NCBI RefSeq assembly: GCF_019967995.1
Contig: NZ_CP065377.1
Location: forward strand, 2,170,001-2,234,000
Direction: 5' to 3'
From: Faecalibacterium prausnitzii
GTDB taxonomy: Bacteria > Bacillota > Clostridia > Oscillospirales > Ruminococcaceae
DNA: 64,000 nucleotides
Shown: positions 51,831-60,722 of the stretch, one piece after another
How the letters are laid out: each line of letters begins with the position of its first letter
Numbering within the stretch: position 1 is the stretch's first letter
The notes under the pieces: generated by a model
Seen by the model: only the letters and a program-made list of their open reading frames with translations
What the model was told of the DNA's origin: nothing
The model's database searches: none
Translations under genes and position numbers: made by a program

Positions 51831-54434
51831 TCATCCCTCCTCCAAATCACATGCGCAGCTCTGCGCCCGCAGTGCCGCCCAGGTCTCGCGGCCAACGGTG
51901 CCGGTCTGCTGCAGGCCCGCCCGCGCCTGCGCGGCCTTCACAGCCACCGTCTCCGCCGGGCCGAAGGACGCATTATCCCGCACGAAGCCCTCCCCGCAGC
52001 AGAGGTTCGCCCGGCCGTTGATCCACTGTTCGATTTGCATCACATCCGGGCCGACGCTCCCTTCCTTCATGGCACGGCCCGGATATGCCATCTCCCGTGC
52101 CGCATCCCGGTCGGGGTTGGGCATCCCGGTCGCTAATTGCAGGCTCAGCGCCTCCACCGCCGTCCAGGTCTCAGCGTCCGCGATGCCGGTCTCCGGCAGG
52201 CCGAGCAGCGCCTGGGCACTGCGGGTCGCAGCGGCAGTCTCCCCGGTGTAGCCGGTGGCCAGCGGCGGTGCCTCCACGCTCTCGAAGTAATAGGCGATCC
52301 GCCGCAGCAGGATGGTGTAATACAGCACGTCGCTGCCCTCGCTGCCCACCGTCAGCGGCTTACCGGGGTAGGGCAGCCGTTTCAGCGTGACCACCGGGCC
52401 GCTGCTGCGCAGAGCCGATGCCTTGCCGTAGAGCGACTCCCAGGTCGCCCGCCCCACGATGCCGTCCACCGTCAGCCCTGCAAACCGCTGGTAGGCCCGC
52501 ACAGCGTTCTCGGTGGCTGCACCAAAACTGCCGTCGATGCCCACCGCCGGGATGCTGGATTCATAGGCGCTCAGGAGGTAGAGGTAGAATTGCAGTTCCC
52601 GCACCGCCGTGCCGCTGCTGCCCCGCCGGAGGATGCCCGGATACTCGCCGGGCCGCAGGCTGGACGACAGCAGTTTGTTGGCGATGTCGTTGTAGACCTC
52701 GTACAGCTTGTTCCAGGTGGTGCGGCCCACCACGCCGTCACTGGTCAATCCGAAGTAGGTCTGGAACCGCTTTACCGCCGCCGTGGTCGCCGCACCGAAC
52801 TTTCCATCCACGGTGAGGTCGTTCAGTCTGGAATAGACGGTGTGGGCGATCTTGAGCCAGAACTGCACGAGCCGCACGTTCTGGCCGCTGGCCCCCTCCC
52901 GCAGAGCCGTGCCGGGGTAGGCGTTGGGGGTGCCGTTGTCCGACTGGATGCTCCGGAACTCGTTGTAGATGGCATTCCAGGTCTCGCGGCCCACCACACC
53001 GTCCACGGTCAGGCCGTACCGCCGCTGGAAGGCCCGCACCGCGCTGGCCGTGGACGCGCCGTAGCGGCCGTCCACCGCAAGGGACGGGATAGCAGATTCG
53101 TACTGCGCCAGCGTATTCAGCCAGAACTGCACCTGCTCCACCGCGCTGCCGGTGGAACCGGTGCGCAGGGCCGTGCCGCCCCAGCTGCCGTCCGACAGGG
53201 TGCCGCTGGAGGTCTCGCCCTCGCTGGTCAGTTCGGCAAGGTCCTTGACCGACACGTAGATATAGCTGATCTTATACCAGGTCTGCCGCCCCACCACGCC
53301 GTCGGCGGTCAGGTTGAACTGCCGCTGGAACGTCTTGACTGTGGACGCCATGCGGGGGCCGAAGACACCGTCCACGGTCAGCTTGCCGAAGAAGGGGTAA
53401 TCCTTCGCGATGCGGTTCAGCTGCCGCTGCAGCGTGAACACCGCCGTGCCGGAATCGCCCTGCCGCAGCGGCGAGCCGGGGTAGCTCTGCGGGATGGCCT
53501 GGATGTTGTTGGTCCGGACGATCTCGATGTCGCTGCCGTAGTAGTATTTCAGGATCTGAAGCGGTGTTTTGCCCTGTTTTGCCAGCGTGACCGTGCCCCA
53601 CTGCTTCAGGCCCGGACAGGTGACGGACTTGCCGTCGCAGTATTCGGAGTAGTAGGGATTGACCGTTCCGGTCTTCCGGAGATAGGTATTGAAGATGTCG
53701 TCCGTCAGCCGGACCATGACATCGAACACGGTCCGCCCGTGGACGTAATACTGGTCGTAGCTGGTGGAGTTGGTGATGTTGAAGCTGTAGCCCCGGCTGG
53801 GGTACCACTCGGTATAGATGCGGTTCAGCGCCAGCGAGATCTGGCAGTGGATGTTCGCCCGCAAGGCGCTCTCCGGCCAGGTCGGGTAGACTTCGCTGGA
53901 CGCCACGTTGGCGATATACCTGCGGAACGAGACGGTCACGTTCCGGGCCGAAGCCGCCGGTTTGCCCAGATGGACCGTGATGTTCTTCGGGATGATGACC
54001 CGGTCCAGCACACGGGGCGCACACGGATCGGTGGGTGCTCTGCCGCTGCCCCCGCCGCCCGCAAACAGCGGGTGGGGCGGGATGACGATGGGCGGGTTCT
54101 CCACGTCCCGGTCCTCCTCCGTTTCGGGGATCATCTCCGGCTGGGCCAGCGTCACCTGCCCCGCAAAGACCTGGATGCCCTGGATGCGGACGGTGCGGTA
54201 CCCCGCCTTCGAAGCCGTCAGGCTGCACACCGCATAGGGCAGACGGGTGGTATTGTCCTCCTCCAGTGAGAGGGCACAGTCCGGGGCGGTCAGGGTCACG
54301 TCCGCGGCATTGCCCTCGGCGTCGGTCATCCGGGCCGCGGTGAAGCCGTCGCCGACGATGTTCACCGTGACCCCCTCCACCGGTGCCGACTGCCGGGCCG
54401 CAAATGCCTGAATGCGCAGAATTCCAGTCGCCAT
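51831..54434 (-). CDS. SpoIID-like protein with six peptidoglycan-binding repeats
   Basis: 867 aa from ATG 54434 (AAAGGAG upstream). A short N-terminal carboxypeptidase-regulatory-like beta domain (~res 1-95, LRIQAFAARQSAPVEGVTVN), an acidic/Pro-rich linker, then a SpoIID/LytB-like region (~130-320: VSFRRYIANVASSEVYPTWP, ESALRANIHCQISLALNRIY). Six tandem PG_binding_1 units follow (~335-860), each with a GxSGxxVxxLQ-type start, VDGxFG and DGVVGxxTW end. The fifth and sixth are divergent. No signal peptide is visible. The combination suggests a wall-bound scaffold or glycan-modifying protein working with the M15 peptidase. Confidence in the SpoIID link is moderate. Confidence 0.78.
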   Translation of the reverse strand: MATGILRIQAFAARQSAPVEGVTVNIVGDGFTAARMTDAEGNAADVTLTAPDCALSLEEDNTTRLPYAVCSLTASKAGYRTVRIQGIQVFAGQVTLAQPEMIPETEEDRDVENPPIVIPPHPLFAGGGGSGRAPTDPCAPRVLDRVIIPKNITVHLGKPAASARNVTVSFRRYIANVASSEVYPTWPESALRANIHCQISLALNRIYTEWYPSRGYSFNITNSTSYDQYYVHGRTVFDVMVRLTDDIFNTYLRKTGTVNPYYSEYCDGKSVTCPGLKQWGTVTLAKQGKTPLQILKYYYGSDIEIVRTNNIQAIPQSYPGSPLRQGDSGTAVFTLQRQLNRIAKDYPFFGKLTVDGVFGPRMASTVKTFQRQFNLTADGVVGRQTWYKISYIYVSVKDLAELTSEGETSSGTLSDGSWGGTALRTGSTGSAVEQVQFWLNTLAQYESAIPSLAVDGRYGASTASAVRAFQRRYGLTVDGVVGRETWNAIYNEFRSIQSDNGTPNAYPGTALREGASGQNVRLVQFWLKIAHTVYSRLNDLTVDGKFGAATTAAVKRFQTYFGLTSDGVVGRTTWNKLYEVYNDIANKLLSSSLRPGEYPGILRRGSSGTAVRELQFYLYLLSAYESSIPAVGIDGSFGAATENAVRAYQRFAGLTVDGIVGRATWESLYGKASALRSSGPVVTLKRLPYPGKPLTVGSEGSDVLYYTILLRRIAYYFESVEAPPLATGYTGETAAATRSAQALLGLPETGIADAETWTAVEALSLQLATGMPNPDRDAAREMAYPGRAMKEGSVGPDVMQIEQWINGRANLCCGEGFVRDNASFGPAETVAVKAAQARAGLQQTGTVGRETWAALRAQSCACDLEEG

Positions 54435-54507
54435 AAACAAAAACTCCTTTGCCGAAATGTTCGCTTGGTTCACTCACAGCGTATTCGGCAAGGAGTCGGA
54501 AGGTGCA

Positions 54508-54611: not shown

Positions 54612-55018
54612 TTACCGCTTGTACTTTGCGGCGGTCTGCAGGCGCTGCATGGCACGGTCAAGAGCGATCTTGCTCTGGTAATACTCGTGCATGCTCTGCT
54701 TGTGCTGTAAGCGCTCTTCGGCGCGGATGCGGGCGGCCTCGGCGCGGTTGCGGTCGATGTCCTCCGGACGCTCGGCGCTGTCCACCAGCAGCAGAACGAA
54801 GGTGGGGGTCACTTCGGCAATGCCGTCGCCCACCAGTACATCACGGGTCTCCCCGTTCACGGTGAATTGCAGCATCCCCATGTGCAGGGCCACCAGCACC
54901 GGGCTGTGGCCGGCCTGCACACCATACACACCGTCGCCGGTGGGCAGGGTCAGGCTCTCACAATCGCCCTGATAAAACTCGCCGCTGGAAGCGGTGATGT
55001 TCAGCATGAACTTCTGCA

Positions 55019-55019
<1 letters not shown>
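54612..55019 (-). CDS. atpC: F1Fo ATP synthase subunit epsilon
   Basis: 135 aa from ATG 55019, which overlaps the atpD stop (TGATG). N-terminal beta-sandwich (~1-85: FYQGDCESLTLPTGDGVYGV, QAGHSPVLVALHMGMLQF) and C-terminal helical hairpin (~90-135) rich in Arg, Glu and Gln. It is the rotor subunit that binds gamma and the c-ring and can inhibit ATP hydrolysis. Last gene of the operon. Confidence 0.95.
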
Positions 55020-56446
<1,427 letters not shown>

Positions 56447-56591: not shown

Positions 56592-57476
56592 TTATTCGTT
56601 ACTTTGCACCGCCGCAGCGCCGCCGATGATCTCGGTAATCTCCTGGGTGATGGAGCCCTGACGGGTGCGGTTGTATTCGAGCTGAAGCTCGTGGATCATA
56701 TCATTGGCGCTCTTGGTGGCCGAATCCATGGCGGTCATGCGGGCGCTCTGCTCCGCGCAGAAGCTCTCGGTCATGGCGCCAAAGATCATGCCGTGCATGT
56801 AGATGGGGGCCGTCTGCTCGAACACCGTTTTGGCGTCCGGGAACATCTCCACCTCGCCGCGGGGGTCACCCAGACCTTTCGGGGCGGGCTTCAGATGCTC
56901 GCGGTCCAGCGGAAGCAGACGCTCCATCACCGGCTCACTGGTCAGCGCGTTCTGGATCTTGGTGTAGATGAGGTAGATCTCATCCAGCTTGCCGGACTTG
57001 AAATCGTCGATGGCGTCCACCGTGATGTCGCGGGCGCGCTGCAGTGTGGGGGCCGTGGCACCATAGTGGAACTCTTCCACCAGGCGCGGGTCCTTGTGGA
57101 GCAGGGCGCGGTAGCCGGTCTGACCAATGACGTAGAAGCGGGCATTGGGGTCGCTGCCGCACTGCTCTTTCAGGAACTTGAGCAGGTTCTGGTTGTAGGC
57201 ACCCGCCATGCCCTTGTCGGCCGTCAGCACGACATAGGCACGGATGGGGTTTTCCTTTTCCCGCTCATGGAAGAACGGGTGGACCGGCTCGTCCGGCAGA
57301 TGCGGCACGACGCGGGAGATGGTGTCCCGCATCCGGGTGAAATACGGCAGAACGTTCTGGTAATTCTGCCGCGCCTTGCGGAGCTTGGAGGAGGAGATCA
57401 GGTACATGGCATTCGTGATCTTCATGGTATCCTGAATGCTCTCGATCCGCTCCTTGAGCAGCTTACTGGACGGCAT
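56592..57476 (-). CDS. atpG: F1Fo ATP synthase subunit gamma
   Basis: 294 aa from ATG 57476 (GGGAGGGGAG upstream). N-terminal helix SSKLLKERIESIQDTMKITN with AMYLISSSKLRKA, VLTADKGMAGAYNQNLLKF (Rossmann part), and C-terminal helix SARMTAMDSATKSANDMIHE, LQLEYNRTRQGSITQEITEI. It is the central rotor shaft. The start lies 14 bp inside the end of the alpha gene, so translation is coupled. Confidence 0.96.
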   Translation of the reverse strand: MPSSKLLKERIESIQDTMKITNAMYLISSSKLRKARQNYQNVLPYFTRMRDTISRVVPHLPDEPVHPFFHEREKENPIRAYVVLTADKGMAGAYNQNLLKFLKEQCGSDPNARFYVIGQTGYRALLHKDPRLVEEFHYGATAPTLQRARDITVDAIDDFKSGKLDEIYLIYTKIQNALTSEPVMERLLPLDREHLKPAPKGLGDPRGEVEMFPDAKTVFEQTAPIYMHGMIFGAMTESFCAEQSARMTAMDSATKSANDMIHELQLEYNRTRQGSITQEITEIIGGAAAVQSNE

Positions 57477-59217
57477 GGCTCTCCCCTCCCGCATAGGTCT
57501 TCCACGCGGTCAGGATGGCGTCCACCTGCTCCGGCGTGATCTTGCCGGTGGAAGCGATGGCATCCATCGCGCCGGAAACATCGGCGTGGAAGGACCGCAC
57601 AAAGGCGTTGACCTTTGCGCGCTGCTCAGCCAGCGGGAGCGTGTCCAGCATCCCGTGGGAGGCCAGCGTCAGGATGACGACCTGCTCGGCATCGGACTTG
57701 GGCTGATAGAGCGGCTGCTTGAGCATCTCGGTCAGGGCCTTGCCGTGTTCCAGCTGACGGCGGGTCTCGGCGTCCAGGTCTGAGCTGAACTGCGCGAAAG
57801 ACTCCATATCCTTGTACTGGGCCAGCTCGATGCGCAGGTTGGAGTTGGCCTTCTTCATGGCCTTGGTCTGGGCTGCGCCGCCGACACGGGACACCGACAG
57901 GCCGACGTTGACGGCCGGGCGGTTGCCTGCGTTGAACAGGGCGCTCTCCAGGAAGATCTGACCATCGGTGATGGAAATGACGTTGGTGGGGATGTAAGCG
58001 GAAACGTCGCCCGCCTGGGTCTCGACGATGGGCAGGGCGGTGATGGAGCCGCCGCCCAGGTCGTCGCGCATCCGGCAGGAGCGCTCCAACAGACGGGAGT
58101 GCAGATAGAAGACGTCGCCGGGGTATGCCTCACGGCCCGGAGAACGGCGCAGCAGCAGCGAGATGGCGCGGTACGCCACAGCGTGCTTGGACAGGTCGTC
58201 GTAGACGATCAGCACGCTCTTGCCTTTGTCCATGAAATACTCGGCCAGTGCGGTGCCCGCATAGGGCGCGATATACTGCAAAGGAGCGCTGTCGGATGCC
58301 GTTGCGGCCACGATGGTGGTGTAGCTCATGGCACCGTGCTTCTTCAGATCCTCGGCCACGCGGGCGATGGAGGAAGCCTTCTGGCCGATGGCGACATAGA
58401 TGCACAGCACCCCGGTGTCCTTCTGGTTCAGGATGGCATCGGTGGCGATGGAGGTCTTGCCGGTCTGGCGGTCGCCGATGATCAGCTCACGCTGACCGCG
58501 GCCGATGGGGAACATGGAGTCGATGGCGAGGATGCCGGTGTGAAGCGGGGTGTCCACGCTCTGGCGCTCCAGAATGCCGGGGGCCTGTTTCTCGATGGGG
58601 TTGTAGCCCTCTGCCTCGATGGGGCCCTTGCCGTCGATGGGCTCGCCCAGCGGGTCGATGACACGGCCCAGGAACTTTTCGCCCACCGGGATGCCCGCGC
58701 GCTTGCCGCTGCGGGTGACCAGGGTGCCGACGCCGACCGACTCAGCCCCGTCAAACAGCATGATGCCCAGACGGCCCGGTTCCACGCTCTCGACCATGCC
58801 CTTGGCACCGTTCTCGAAGGTGACGATCTCGCCGTAAACGGCGCGGTCCATCCCCTCGACCTGCACGATGCCGTCGGCGGAGGCGATGACCACGCCTCCC
58901 TCTTCCGAGGTCTGAGCGGGCTTATAATCCTCCACGCGGGTCTTCAGGGTAGCCAGAGAGGGCTTGCCGGCCATCATCTGGTCCAGCTGGTGGCGGCCGG
59001 AGTTGTCGAACATCCGGTCACCGACCTGCAGCACATAGCCGGAGAGCAGGCTCTCATCGACGGCCACGTTCAGGATGACCTCGGTGGCGTCGTAGAGCTT
59101 CTTTACCTCGTTCTTGATGCGGGCGATGTCCTCTTCGCGCAGCTGGTGGGCAGCGCGCAGGTCGGCCTTGACGATCCGGTTCTCCTCAAAGAACGCACGG
59201 CTGAATTCAGTTGCCAT
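57463..59217 (-). CDS. atpA: Fusion of ATP synthase delta C-terminal domain to subunit alpha
   Basis: 584 aa from ATG 59217, about 80 longer than normal alpha. Residues ~15-82 (IVKADLRAAHQLREEDIARI, EVILNVAVDESLLSGYVLQV, GDRMFDNSGRHQLDQMM) match the C-terminal domain of delta (A..L......I...L.......V....D.SL..G.....GD...D.S...RL). Then a normal alpha follows, including its N-terminal helix (SLATLKTRVEDYKPAQ), GGVVIASADGIVQVEG, Walker A GDRQTGKT (248-255) and the SVSRVGGAAQTKAM region. There is no stop or frameshift between the parts. Delta's N-terminal domain, which normally grips the alpha N-termini, is missing, and no atpH lies in the operon. The start overlaps atpF by 11 bp. Confidence 0.93.
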   Translation of the reverse strand: MATEFSRAFFEENRIVKADLRAAHQLREEDIARIKNEVKKLYDATEVILNVAVDESLLSGYVLQVGDRMFDNSGRHQLDQMMAGKPSLATLKTRVEDYKPAQTSEEGGVVIASADGIVQVEGMDRAVYGEIVTFENGAKGMVESVEPGRLGIMLFDGAESVGVGTLVTRSGKRAGIPVGEKFLGRVIDPLGEPIDGKGPIEAEGYNPIEKQAPGILERQSVDTPLHTGILAIDSMFPIGRGQRELIIGDRQTGKTSIATDAILNQKDTGVLCIYVAIGQKASSIARVAEDLKKHGAMSYTTIVAATASDSAPLQYIAPYAGTALAEYFMDKGKSVLIVYDDLSKHAVAYRAISLLLRRSPGREAYPGDVFYLHSRLLERSCRMRDDLGGGSITALPIVETQAGDVSAYIPTNVISITDGQIFLESALFNAGNRPAVNVGLSVSRVGGAAQTKAMKKANSNLRIELAQYKDMESFAQFSSDLDAETRRQLEHGKALTEMLKQPLYQPKSDAEQVVILTLASHGMLDTLPLAEQRAKVNAFVRSFHADVSGAMDAIASTGKITPEQVDAILTAWKTYAGGESHAVQ

Positions 59218-59698
59218 TGCCTGCACCTGCTTTCTCCAACAGATCGTCCAGCAGACGGGCGTCGTCCTGTGCGGTCAGGTGCCGTGCCAGCAGCTTTTCG
59301 CACATCGCACGGGCCAGAGCCGTGGTCTGGGCGTCGGCCTCGCGCAGCTTGTGCTGGCGCTCTGCCTCGGCTGCGGTCTTGCCCTCGGCAAGGATGGCGT
59401 CAGCCTGCTTCTGGGCGTCCAGCAGCAGCTGCTGCTTTTCCTTCTCCGCCTGCTGCTCGTAAGCCTTGCGGCGGGCAGCGGCCTCATCGTCCACATTGCG
59501 CAGCTTATCCTGCGCAGCATTCAGTGCCGCAGCGGCTTCGCTCTTGGAAGTCTCGGCAGCAGCAAGGGCGTCGTCCACCTGCTTCTGGCGCTCTGCGATG
59601 ATGTTCATGACAGGCCTGTACAGGAACTTGCGCAGCAGCAAAAACAGGACCAGAACGTTGACGACCGTCCACAAAAGGTTCAGATTCAGTGTCAGCAT
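59207..59698 (-). CDS. atpF: F1Fo ATP synthase subunit b
   Basis: 163 aa. One N-terminal membrane helix (LLWTVVNVLVLFLLLRKFLY, res 8-27) then a long charged, Ala-rich coiled coil with the RQKQVDDALAAAE repeat to the C-terminus. It is the peripheral stalk that normally binds the delta C-terminal domain, here supplied by the N-terminus of the alpha fusion. GGAGGC precedes the start. The end overlaps the alpha start by 11 bp. Confidence 0.95.
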   Translation of the reverse strand: MLTLNLNLLWTVVNVLVLFLLLRKFLYRPVMNIIAERQKQVDDALAAAETSKSEAAAALNAAQDKLRNVDDEAAARRKAYEQQAEKEKQQLLLDAQKQADAILAEGKTAAEAERQHKLREADAQTTALARAMCEKLLARHLTAQDDARLLDDLLEKAGAGNGN

Positions 59699-59715: not shown

Positions 59716-59940
59716 TCAACCCAGGAACAGGATGATCAGCAGTGCAACGACGAAGCCGAAAATTGCAGTACCTTCTGCCAGAGCAGCGCCCAGCAGCAGG
59801 TTGGTCTGGATCTTGCCGGATGCTTCGGGCTGGCGGCTGATGGCCTCCGTTGCCTTACCGGTCGCAATGCCGATGCCGATGCCGCCGCCAATACCAGTCA
59901 GCGCTGCGATGCCAGCGCCCAGAGCTACGAGTCCGTTCAT
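59716..59940 (-). CDS. atpE: F1Fo ATP synthase subunit c
   Basis: 74 aa from ATG 59940 (TAGGAG upstream). Two helices: [20 protein letters not shown] and [20 protein letters not shown], joined by the polar loop ARQPEA-like [10 protein letters not shown]. The essential Glu in helix 2 is in AEGT. The Na+-type ligands (Gln in helix 1; Ser/Thr after the Glu) are absent, so it should use protons. Confidence 0.95.
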
Positions 59941-59983
59941 AATAAAATCTCCTATCTTTTTATCGTTTTTCTTTTGTACGACT

Positions 59984-60040
59984 TCTCCGTCCCTGCTCCG
60001 CAATGCCAGGAGAGCTGTCTGCGCAGCAGACTGAGAGGTT
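59984..60040. repeat. Palindromic REP/MITE-like element, copy D (short)
   Basis: On the minus strand it starts AACCTCTCAGTCTGC and ends GGGACGGAGA, like copies B and C, with GAGCTGTC...GACAGCTC-type inner stems. It lies between atpB and atpE. Confidence 0.55.
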
Positions 60041-60722
60041 ACTCTTCGTCTCCCAGGCTCTCCTTCATAAAGAGGGAGGTCAGGAACACAAACACATACG
60101 TCTGGATCAGACCATCGAACAGGTCAAAATACAGGCTGAACACTGCGGGGACGAACACCGGCACCACGAGCTTGATCAGCTCCATGATGACGAACGCGCC
60201 CAGCACATTGCCGAACAGTCGCATACACAGGCTGGTGGGCCGGATGGCGATCTCCAGGATATTCATGGGCGTCATGATCGGCGTAGGAGCCGCCAGACTC
60301 TTGAGGAAGCCTTTCCCGCCGCGCGCGTGGATGCCGGAGTATTCGATGAGCACGATGCTCATCAGGGCCAGAGCTGCGGTGACGTTCAGATCCTTCGTGG
60401 GAGGCTTGATGCCGAACACACCAATGAGGTTGGAGCACGCGATATACAGCGCCACACTCATCAGATACGGCACATACCGTTTGCCGTTCTCACCCAGCAG
60501 CCCGACGAAGAAATCGTTGAGAAGAGTCACGACCGTTTCCAGGATGGCCTGGCGCCTGGTGATGTGATCGACCCGCAGATTCCGCGTCAGCAGGATCGAA
60601 CCGAGCACCAGAAACACCATGATGCCCCAGCTGACGACCACGGATTCCGGGATCTGCAGCCCGAACACCGAGACCATCTCCACGTTCAGCTCTTCTTTCA
60701 AAGCAGCAGTCAACGCATTCAT
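60039..60722 (-). CDS. atpB: F1Fo ATP synthase subunit a
   Basis: 227 aa polytopic protein. The key Arg of the proton path lies in [20 protein letters not shown] (~res 165-183), and the C-terminal helix ends [17 protein letters not shown]. It forms the two half-channels against the c-ring. First gene of the operon; no atpI precedes it. AAAGGAGATAG lies upstream at a slightly long distance (12 bases). Confidence 0.95.

Follow-up and report, generated by a model that had tools for sequence, protein, structure and literature searches.

Organization of the fused operon

The window, that is, the whole stretch of 64,000 nucleotides of Faecalibacterium prausnitzii DNA that we analyzed, carries on its minus strand a complete operon for an F-type ATP synthase, in the order a, c, b, delta-alpha fusion, gamma, beta and epsilon. 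Its features, with profile matches in brackets, are as follows.

60039..60722, minus strand, atpB, a subunit, 227 aa (PF00119, E 6.5e-40)
59716..60003, minus strand, atpE, c subunit, 95 aa from TTG (PF00137, E 5.6e-18)
59207..59698, minus strand, atpF, b subunit, 163 aa (PF00430, E 6.5e-18)
58975..59217, minus strand, delta (OSCP) C-terminal domain, fusion residues 1-81 from the ATG start
58906..58974, minus strand, linker and alpha N-terminal segment, residues 82-104
57463..58905, minus strand, alpha core of the fusion, residues 105-584 and stop
56592..57494, minus strand, atpG, gamma subunit (PF00231, E 5e-87)
55019..56431, minus strand, atpD, beta subunit, 470 aa (TIGR01039, 782.7 bits vs 462.85)
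54612..55106, minus strand, atpC, epsilon subunit (PF02823 and PF00401)

The operon encodes alpha, beta, gamma, epsilon, a, b and c, all canonical F1Fo subunits, and a free delta with N- and C-terminal domains was not found in it. The start of atpE is probably the ATG at 59940, as in the 74 aa ORF of locus L065. The gene order atpB-E-F-A-G-D-C given by the initial annotation was confirmed, as was the 11 bp overlap of atpF with the fusion gene (59207-59217).

The fusion of a delta C-terminal domain to alpha is certain. Positions 57463-59217 form one uninterrupted frame of 584 aa from the ATG at 59217, with an in-frame GTG nine bases upstream, at 59226. The initial annotation had read this frame as a delta C-terminal domain followed by a complete alpha, and had proposed comparing its N-terminal part with the OSCP/delta family. 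That comparison was significant: from the GTG start, residues 2-84 matched Pfam OSCP positions 86-168 (E 6.8e-16; 59.3 bits, cut-off 22.3), and from the ATG start, residues 2-81 matched positions 89-168 of the 172 in PF00213 (OSCP) (E 2.2e-15). The alpha that follows is complete (705 bits to TIGR00962), in agreement with the reading. The match begins at profile position 86-89 and already at protein residue 2, indicating that the delta N-terminal domain is missing.

When the first 86 residues were searched against solved structures, the 22 matches with E no higher than 1, of which six were below 0.001 and the best was 2.9e-7, were all delta/OSCP chains or delta-containing fusions, best aligned in the C-terminal part; one of them, 8j0s_d ('Multifunctional fusion protein'), we take to be the mycobacterial b-delta. 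An AlphaFold2 model of the fusion (mean pLDDT 71.5) contained a delta domain with pLDDT 81-86 over residues 11-70, a disordered linker (pLDDT <50, residues 83-104) and an alpha. A structure search with this model listed alpha chains alone and thus tested only the alpha part, so the identity of the delta part rests on the sequence matches.

For the three pairs formed by the window, L065 and L085 (F. hattorii), dN/dS was 0.18-0.26 in the delta part and 0.07-0.09 in the alpha core, values indicating that the fused domain is under purifying selection. Across 16 fused delta domains, the most conserved columns are also kept in the window's domain. In a protein search with fusion residues 1-100, all 7993 scored candidates fell at E <0.001 (a saturated search), and the 120 matches listed were proteins of 582-599 aa with OSCP and alpha domains. 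The single named relative from a scan of the fused region was Faecalibacterium hattorii, with 86% over residues 3-109.

A second ATP synthase with a free delta

The genome is assembled as a single 2.94 Mb contig, on which a second, complete canonical operon lies at about 2.6117-2.6181 Mb, 0.39 Mb from the fusion operon, with its own alpha and beta. This operon also encodes a free delta of 179 aa (OSCP 1-171, E 7.4e-41), the sole other delta in the genome. The absence of atpH in the initial annotation therefore holds for the fusion operon, where atpF overlaps the fusion gene by 11 bp, and fails for the genome, in which a separate full-length atpH is present, though inside its own canonical operon. 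Taken literally, such a gene is among the findings that the initial annotation had named as refuting its reading.

Spread of the fusion and absence of a free delta

A delta-alpha frame was found in at least 16 of the 148 genomes of a family sample; this figure is a lower bound because very diverged domains escape Pfam. No free delta was found in seven of these 16, and the other nine, including the window's genome, have one that could in principle join the fused F1, which counts against the explanation that we favor below. For larger samples we counted open frames of at least 560 aa with no stop across the match. By this rule, at least 49 genomes in an order sample of 295 have an alpha joined to delta sequence (the window's and nine with the b-delta-alpha chains described below included), so that such fusions do occur in related genomes, where the initial annotation had suggested looking for it; the three weakest matches, read directly, were delta-alpha frames. 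A phylum sample gave at least 10 of 398 genomes, two of which (G000 and G165) belong to the order; the matches in G552 and G597 were read directly. A candidate at G062:C1:212952 was not counted, as its locus (L044) is a distant beta-like frame alone.

We then hand-picked 50 fusion-bearing genomes from the sample lists, favoring those with a single match. No free delta was detected at E 10 in 42 of them, among them G407, whose own fused domain is too diverged for Pfam to detect. One a-subunit gene exceeded the cut-off in 41 of the 42, and none did in G397. The fusion is the only delta of G451, a single-contig genome. In G075, which has no free delta, beta and gamma of the fused operon (L033) are split over several frames, reflecting sequence errors or decay. 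Within the genus, two of four sampled genomes have the window's type, G429 has a different fused type, and G081 gave no fused match.

Evolution of the fusions

We built a tree from 60 alpha cores and named its groups after the tree was seen. Fused forms lie in three places. The window's set has 26 members (support 99/93), comprising 17 fusions of the delta C-terminal domain (CTD), 7 of full-length delta and 2 free-delta loci; the b-delta-alpha set has 10 members (support 100/100); and the third place is the pair L078 and L079 (support 93/77), of which L079 is a long branch. The full-length delta-alpha fusions are L025-L029, L077 and L081. A single clade of all fused forms was rejected (AU p 0.00017; 0.00028 without L078 and L079). 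The two nested free-delta members, possible reversals, may account for part of this rejection.

To account for the CTD-only label the tree needs five changes, of which starred branches force at least four, L078 and L079 included, and the CTD-only fusions of the window's set do not form one clade (AU p 6e-89). It thus seems that the delta N-terminal domain was lost repeatedly after fusion, a direction that we infer. Alternatively, deltas that were already shortened may have been fused separately; the same tree would be expected.

Chains of b, delta and alpha

The second operon of G120 encodes a 749 aa chain that consists of a membrane-type helix, a b-like stalk, a delta C-terminal domain and alpha; in Pfam its OSCP and alpha domains were seen and the b family was not. 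A search with the first 250 residues returned 461 proteins at E <0.001 among 8000 scored. A strongly hydrophobic N-terminal segment was present in all 120 b-delta-alpha matches listed (421-752 aa, some partial), versus none of the 120 listed fusions of the window's type. In the aligned set, 23 of 23 matched OSCP and 18 of 23 matched PF00430, the b family. In a model of the chain, helices at residues 3-58 and 74-126 precede a delta domain at about 165-239 and the alpha N-terminal helix at 248-261.

Each of the ten loci that were read encodes an a and a c subunit, a short separate b' (138-141 aa), the b-delta-alpha chain itself, and gamma, beta and epsilon subunits. In eight of these genomes (G166, G260, G204, G400, G420, G167, G233 and G308; completeness 91-100%, 62% for G308) no further delta exceeded the cut-off and a single a gene did; G420 gave one weak delta match (E 0.003, in a 498 aa frame). 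A canonical delta accompanies the chain in G120 and G235. By the delta and a tests, the b-delta-alpha enzyme is the only F-type ATP synthase in seven genomes that are 91-100% complete. Each F1 contains three alphas and would therefore have three b, each anchored in the membrane, unless the chain is cut.

One of 391 genomes in a class sample gave a b-delta-alpha match (profile E 1e-12), which was rejected: it has a stop inside, and its locus, L093, has a separate b followed by a delta-CTD-alpha frame. This search contained no known positive. A published description of a b-delta-alpha fusion was not found among the papers listed in one open-licence library. New here, as judged from the gene sequences, would be the spread of the alpha-delta fusion in the order, the many relatives without another delta, what seems to be repeated loss of the N-terminal half, and the b-delta-alpha chains.

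Probable coupling ion of the two enzymes

The window's c subunit has I at position 32, counted from the RQPE loop, and E-G-T-A-I-F from the carboxylate on. Position 32 is I or M in all 24 fused members of the window's set. Among the 21 canonical free-delta loci L004-L024, of which L016 gave no c, it is E or Q in 20 of 20, and S/T-T follows the carboxylate in 19 of the 20. If, as we assume, the Na+ motif of Ilyobacter is a valid guide, the canonical enzyme of the genome looks Na+-type and the fused one H+-type. On this c motif the fused-operon enzyme looks H+-type, and the canonical enzyme of the same cell is probably Na+-type.

The residue at position 32 was Q in L040 and L041, I in L042 and L043 (all four free-delta loci), Q in L078 and D in L079; the ten b-delta-alpha loci have Q there and A after the carboxylate (T in L071). 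We rejected the c-subunit pattern as a mark of fusion, since L042 and L043 have a free delta and lie in the fused clade with the same residues; the pattern tracks clade, not fusion.

Comparison with known systems

The closest counterpart is engineered. According to the available text of Ueno et al. 2025 (PMC12229609), delta residues 2-104 of Bacillus PS3 FoF1 were removed and the remainder was fused to alpha. The resulting delta-deltaN-alpha enzyme had, on average, two stalks and two a subunits by SDS-PAGE and an H+/ATP ratio of 5.8 vs 3.0, and 15, 51, 26 and 8% of its cryo-EM particles had 0, 1, 2 and 3 stalks, respectively (PMC12229609). One or no stalk was thus present on 66% of these particles, which counts against the formation of many stalks. 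The same source attributes the restriction of the enzyme to one stalk to the delta N-terminal domain, which sits on the threefold axis. The earlier argument that a tether makes this domain unnecessary, giving three delta C-terminal domains per F1, matches the PS3 build (PMC12229609), and relatives in which the fused delta is the only one detected, together with CTD-only fusions that do not form one clade, also point to its being dispensable.

The engineered chain (PDB 9jc1_I) aligns with the window fusion over residues 19-544. Both lack the delta N-terminal domain, carry the delta C-terminal domain on the alpha N-terminus and have no separate delta in the construct or operon; in the PS3 construct the two parts are joined by a short linker. 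The PS3 enzyme is man-made and without the epsilon C-terminal domain, whereas the window's epsilon retains its helical domain (PF00401), and stalk number and H+/ATP were measured for the engineered enzyme, whereas the window's is known from its genes alone.

Natural delta-alpha fusions, thought undescribed when the locus was first annotated, are in fact named in the available part of the PS3 study, namely that of Acidaminococcus fermentans and UniProt G4Q3K6 and A0A1I2C5T3, and the A. fermentans enzyme is there considered highly likely to be multi-stalk (PMC12229609). The window's fusion thus adds one more natural example to an architecture that had already been described. As far as its description goes, the A. 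fermentans fusion resembles the window's in being a natural fused gene without the delta N-terminal domain. A. fermentans belongs to another class.

The initial annotation cited mycobacterial b-delta fusions as a precedent for moving delta. In Mycobacterium and Gordonia delta is fused to b, and the accessible text of Niu et al. 2017 (PMC5709465) reports such b-delta fusions, along with a Clostridia order without delta; that text describes no delta-alpha fusion. Delta has moved onto another stator subunit there as in the window, but it sits on b with alpha free (PMC5709465), whereas the window's b is a separate 163 aa gene. The b-delta-alpha family is one step beyond the mycobacterial b-delta. 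If three stalks form, the window enzyme would work like a V-type ATPase with its three EG stalks; those stalks are built of other subunits, and according to the part of PMC6131620 available a collar formed by C, H and a holds them in place. N-type ATPases share with the window a second F-type operon beside the regular one and the lack of a delta gene. This assignment was rejected, as all six subunits scored fall below the NCBIfam 'alternate F1F0' cut-offs (bits against cut-off: alpha 571.5/750.5, beta 595.2/752, gamma 92.5/282.35, a 125.7/302.1, b 63.2/224.7, c 38.8/130.85); NCBIfam lists no such model for epsilon.

Proposed architecture and alternative explanations

A textbook F-type ATP synthase has one peripheral stalk and one a subunit. 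In the explanation that we favor by a modest degree, the window operon encodes a complete, working H+-type F1Fo in which delta is reduced to a C-terminal domain on every alpha, and which is possibly multi-stalk. Only the b-binding domain of delta would remain, attached to each alpha at its N-terminus. Every alpha would thereby offer a delta domain for the tip of a b dimer to bind, which would leave room for between one and three b2 stalks around a single F1, with one a subunit per stalk. Extra stalks would raise H+/ATP and allow ATP to be made at low proton motive force; in reverse, the enzyme would be a low-gear proton pump. The cell would also run a separate, canonical enzyme that is probably Na+-type. 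That the fused domain does delta's job is very probable from the genes. We put at even chances that a substantial fraction of the window's enzyme carries more than one stalk. We are evenly divided, too, on the broader proposal that multi-stalk F-type ATP synthases are natural and recurrent in the order, the window's included, with b-delta(CTD)-alpha as the committed form, in which each alpha would have its own membrane-anchored b arm and the fused b would pair with the separate b' to give three stalks per F1.

The competing explanations are not mutually exclusive, and the likelihoods that we attach to them need not sum to one. A single-stalk enzyme, in which a lone b2 dimer is bound by one tethered delta domain while the remaining two domains stay unattached, is a serious possibility that we nevertheless consider somewhat less probable than its negation. 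In this version the fusion would save a gene and fix the stalk to F1, with ion stoichiometry unchanged. Fusion alone does not imply many stalks, because in some relatives the delta joined to alpha is still full-length; such enzymes must work with three N-terminal domains, and even the engineered PS3 enzyme had mostly one stalk in cryo-EM (51%; PMC12229609). On the other hand, the N-terminal domain, which restricts stalk number in the engineered enzyme, is absent from the window fusion, CTD-only fusions recur in several parts of the tree, and a b-delta-alpha enzyme with uncut chains could not keep two of its three b anchors off the membrane.

Internal initiation or cleavage would yield a mixture of plain alpha and delta-alpha with one tethered delta per F1, and we regard this as improbable. 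At the junction, codons 84-85 of the GTG frame are two in-frame ATGs, and GTG codon 112 is closely preceded by a GAGGGAGG run; this run leaves almost no spacing, however, and is not kept in L065, while codons 84-85 have no Shine-Dalgarno-like sequence in the window, which was read by eye. The latter is weak evidence, because the window's own ATG start lacks one too (present at 22 and absent at 14 of 36 fusion starts); as atpF overlaps the fusion start, coupled translation is plausible there. Among the 28 of 36 fusion genes that could be assessed because a motif located the alpha barrel, the window's not being one of them, a Shine-Dalgarno-preceded start codon occurs within the 60 codons before the barrel in nine, and in one of these it is an ATG. 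Internal starts in the fusion thus look unlikely from the gene sequences. Still less probable is an arrangement in which both enzymes use the free delta from the canonical operon and the fused domain is accessory or vestigial. A full-length free delta does exist in the window's genome, as in the other fusion-bearing family-sample genomes that keep one (9/16 in all), but the 7/16 and the 42/50 hand-picked genomes without any reject this as a general explanation, and the fused domain is under purifying selection with its most conserved columns kept. We give almost no weight to a silent or decaying second operon. The second ATP synthase of the same genome, the split beta and gamma frames of G075 and the genus member without a fused match (G081, one of four) are compatible with decay; the window's subunits, however, are intact and its fusion has low dN/dS, two of the four genus genomes have its type and a third (G429) another fused type, and by the delta and a tests the fused enzyme is the only F-type one in many relatives.

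Implications

CTD-only delta-alpha fusions and b-delta-alpha chains are gene targets for settling natural stalk number; for the chains there is no obvious alternative to three b arms. The fused layout may be the natural many-stalked counterpart of the engineered enzyme, which can synthesize ATP on a weaker proton gradient. If so, the ion/ATP ratio would depend on the number of stalks in addition to the size of the c-ring, and such cells would work at a high ion/ATP ratio and make ATP when the ion motive force is low. The window's organism would have two ATP synthases that differ in coupling ion and perhaps also in gear ratio.

Fusion architectures of the stalk and alpha subunits

One family of ATP synthase loci in the sampled genomes encodes a b-like stalk, the delta C-terminal domain (CTD) and alpha as a single chain, b-delta(CTD)-alpha, each member being accompanied by a short separate b gene (b'):

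L032:8900-11149, triple-fusion chain
L067-L074 and L084, further loci of the family

According to genome profile searches for other delta or a-subunit genes over the cut-off, this triple fusion is the sole F-ATPase of seven genomes (91-100% completeness). No published account of the family was found in the literature searched, a single open-licence collection. Another arrangement was present in genome G242:

L080:6041-8068, tandem pair of delta CTDs ahead of a single alpha

In the fused operon of G075 (L033), beta and gamma are broken across several reading frames, reflecting either sequence errors or decay.

Variation in the c and a subunits

In one subclade of delta-CTD-alpha operons (L030, L033-L035, L037-L039, L066, L076, L080, L082 and L083), the c subunits (119-159 aa as ORFs) are extended at the N-terminus by a segment resembling a signal peptide, and the a subunits are long and divergent. 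A c-c fusion was found within one protein:

L042:3284-3745, 153 aa, two fused c-subunit hairpins, each with its carboxylate

Two separate c genes lie in tandem in L029. In the window's genome, the c residues are H+-type in the fused operon (window 59716-60003) and Na+-type in the canonical, free-delta operon (L004:7049-7330), as judged by the Na+ motif of the Ilyobacter enzyme.

Distribution and neighbourhood

The fused operon L066, from another species of the window's genus (G429), belongs to a different subclade than the window's. Like the window's genome, the phylum-level relative G552 has both a free-delta and a delta-CTD-alpha operon (L086 and L087). Adjoining the window's fused operon on its downstream side is the following gene:

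window 51831-54473, (-) strand, protein of 880 aa in which visual inspection shows repeated stretches of peptidoglycan-binding-like sequence
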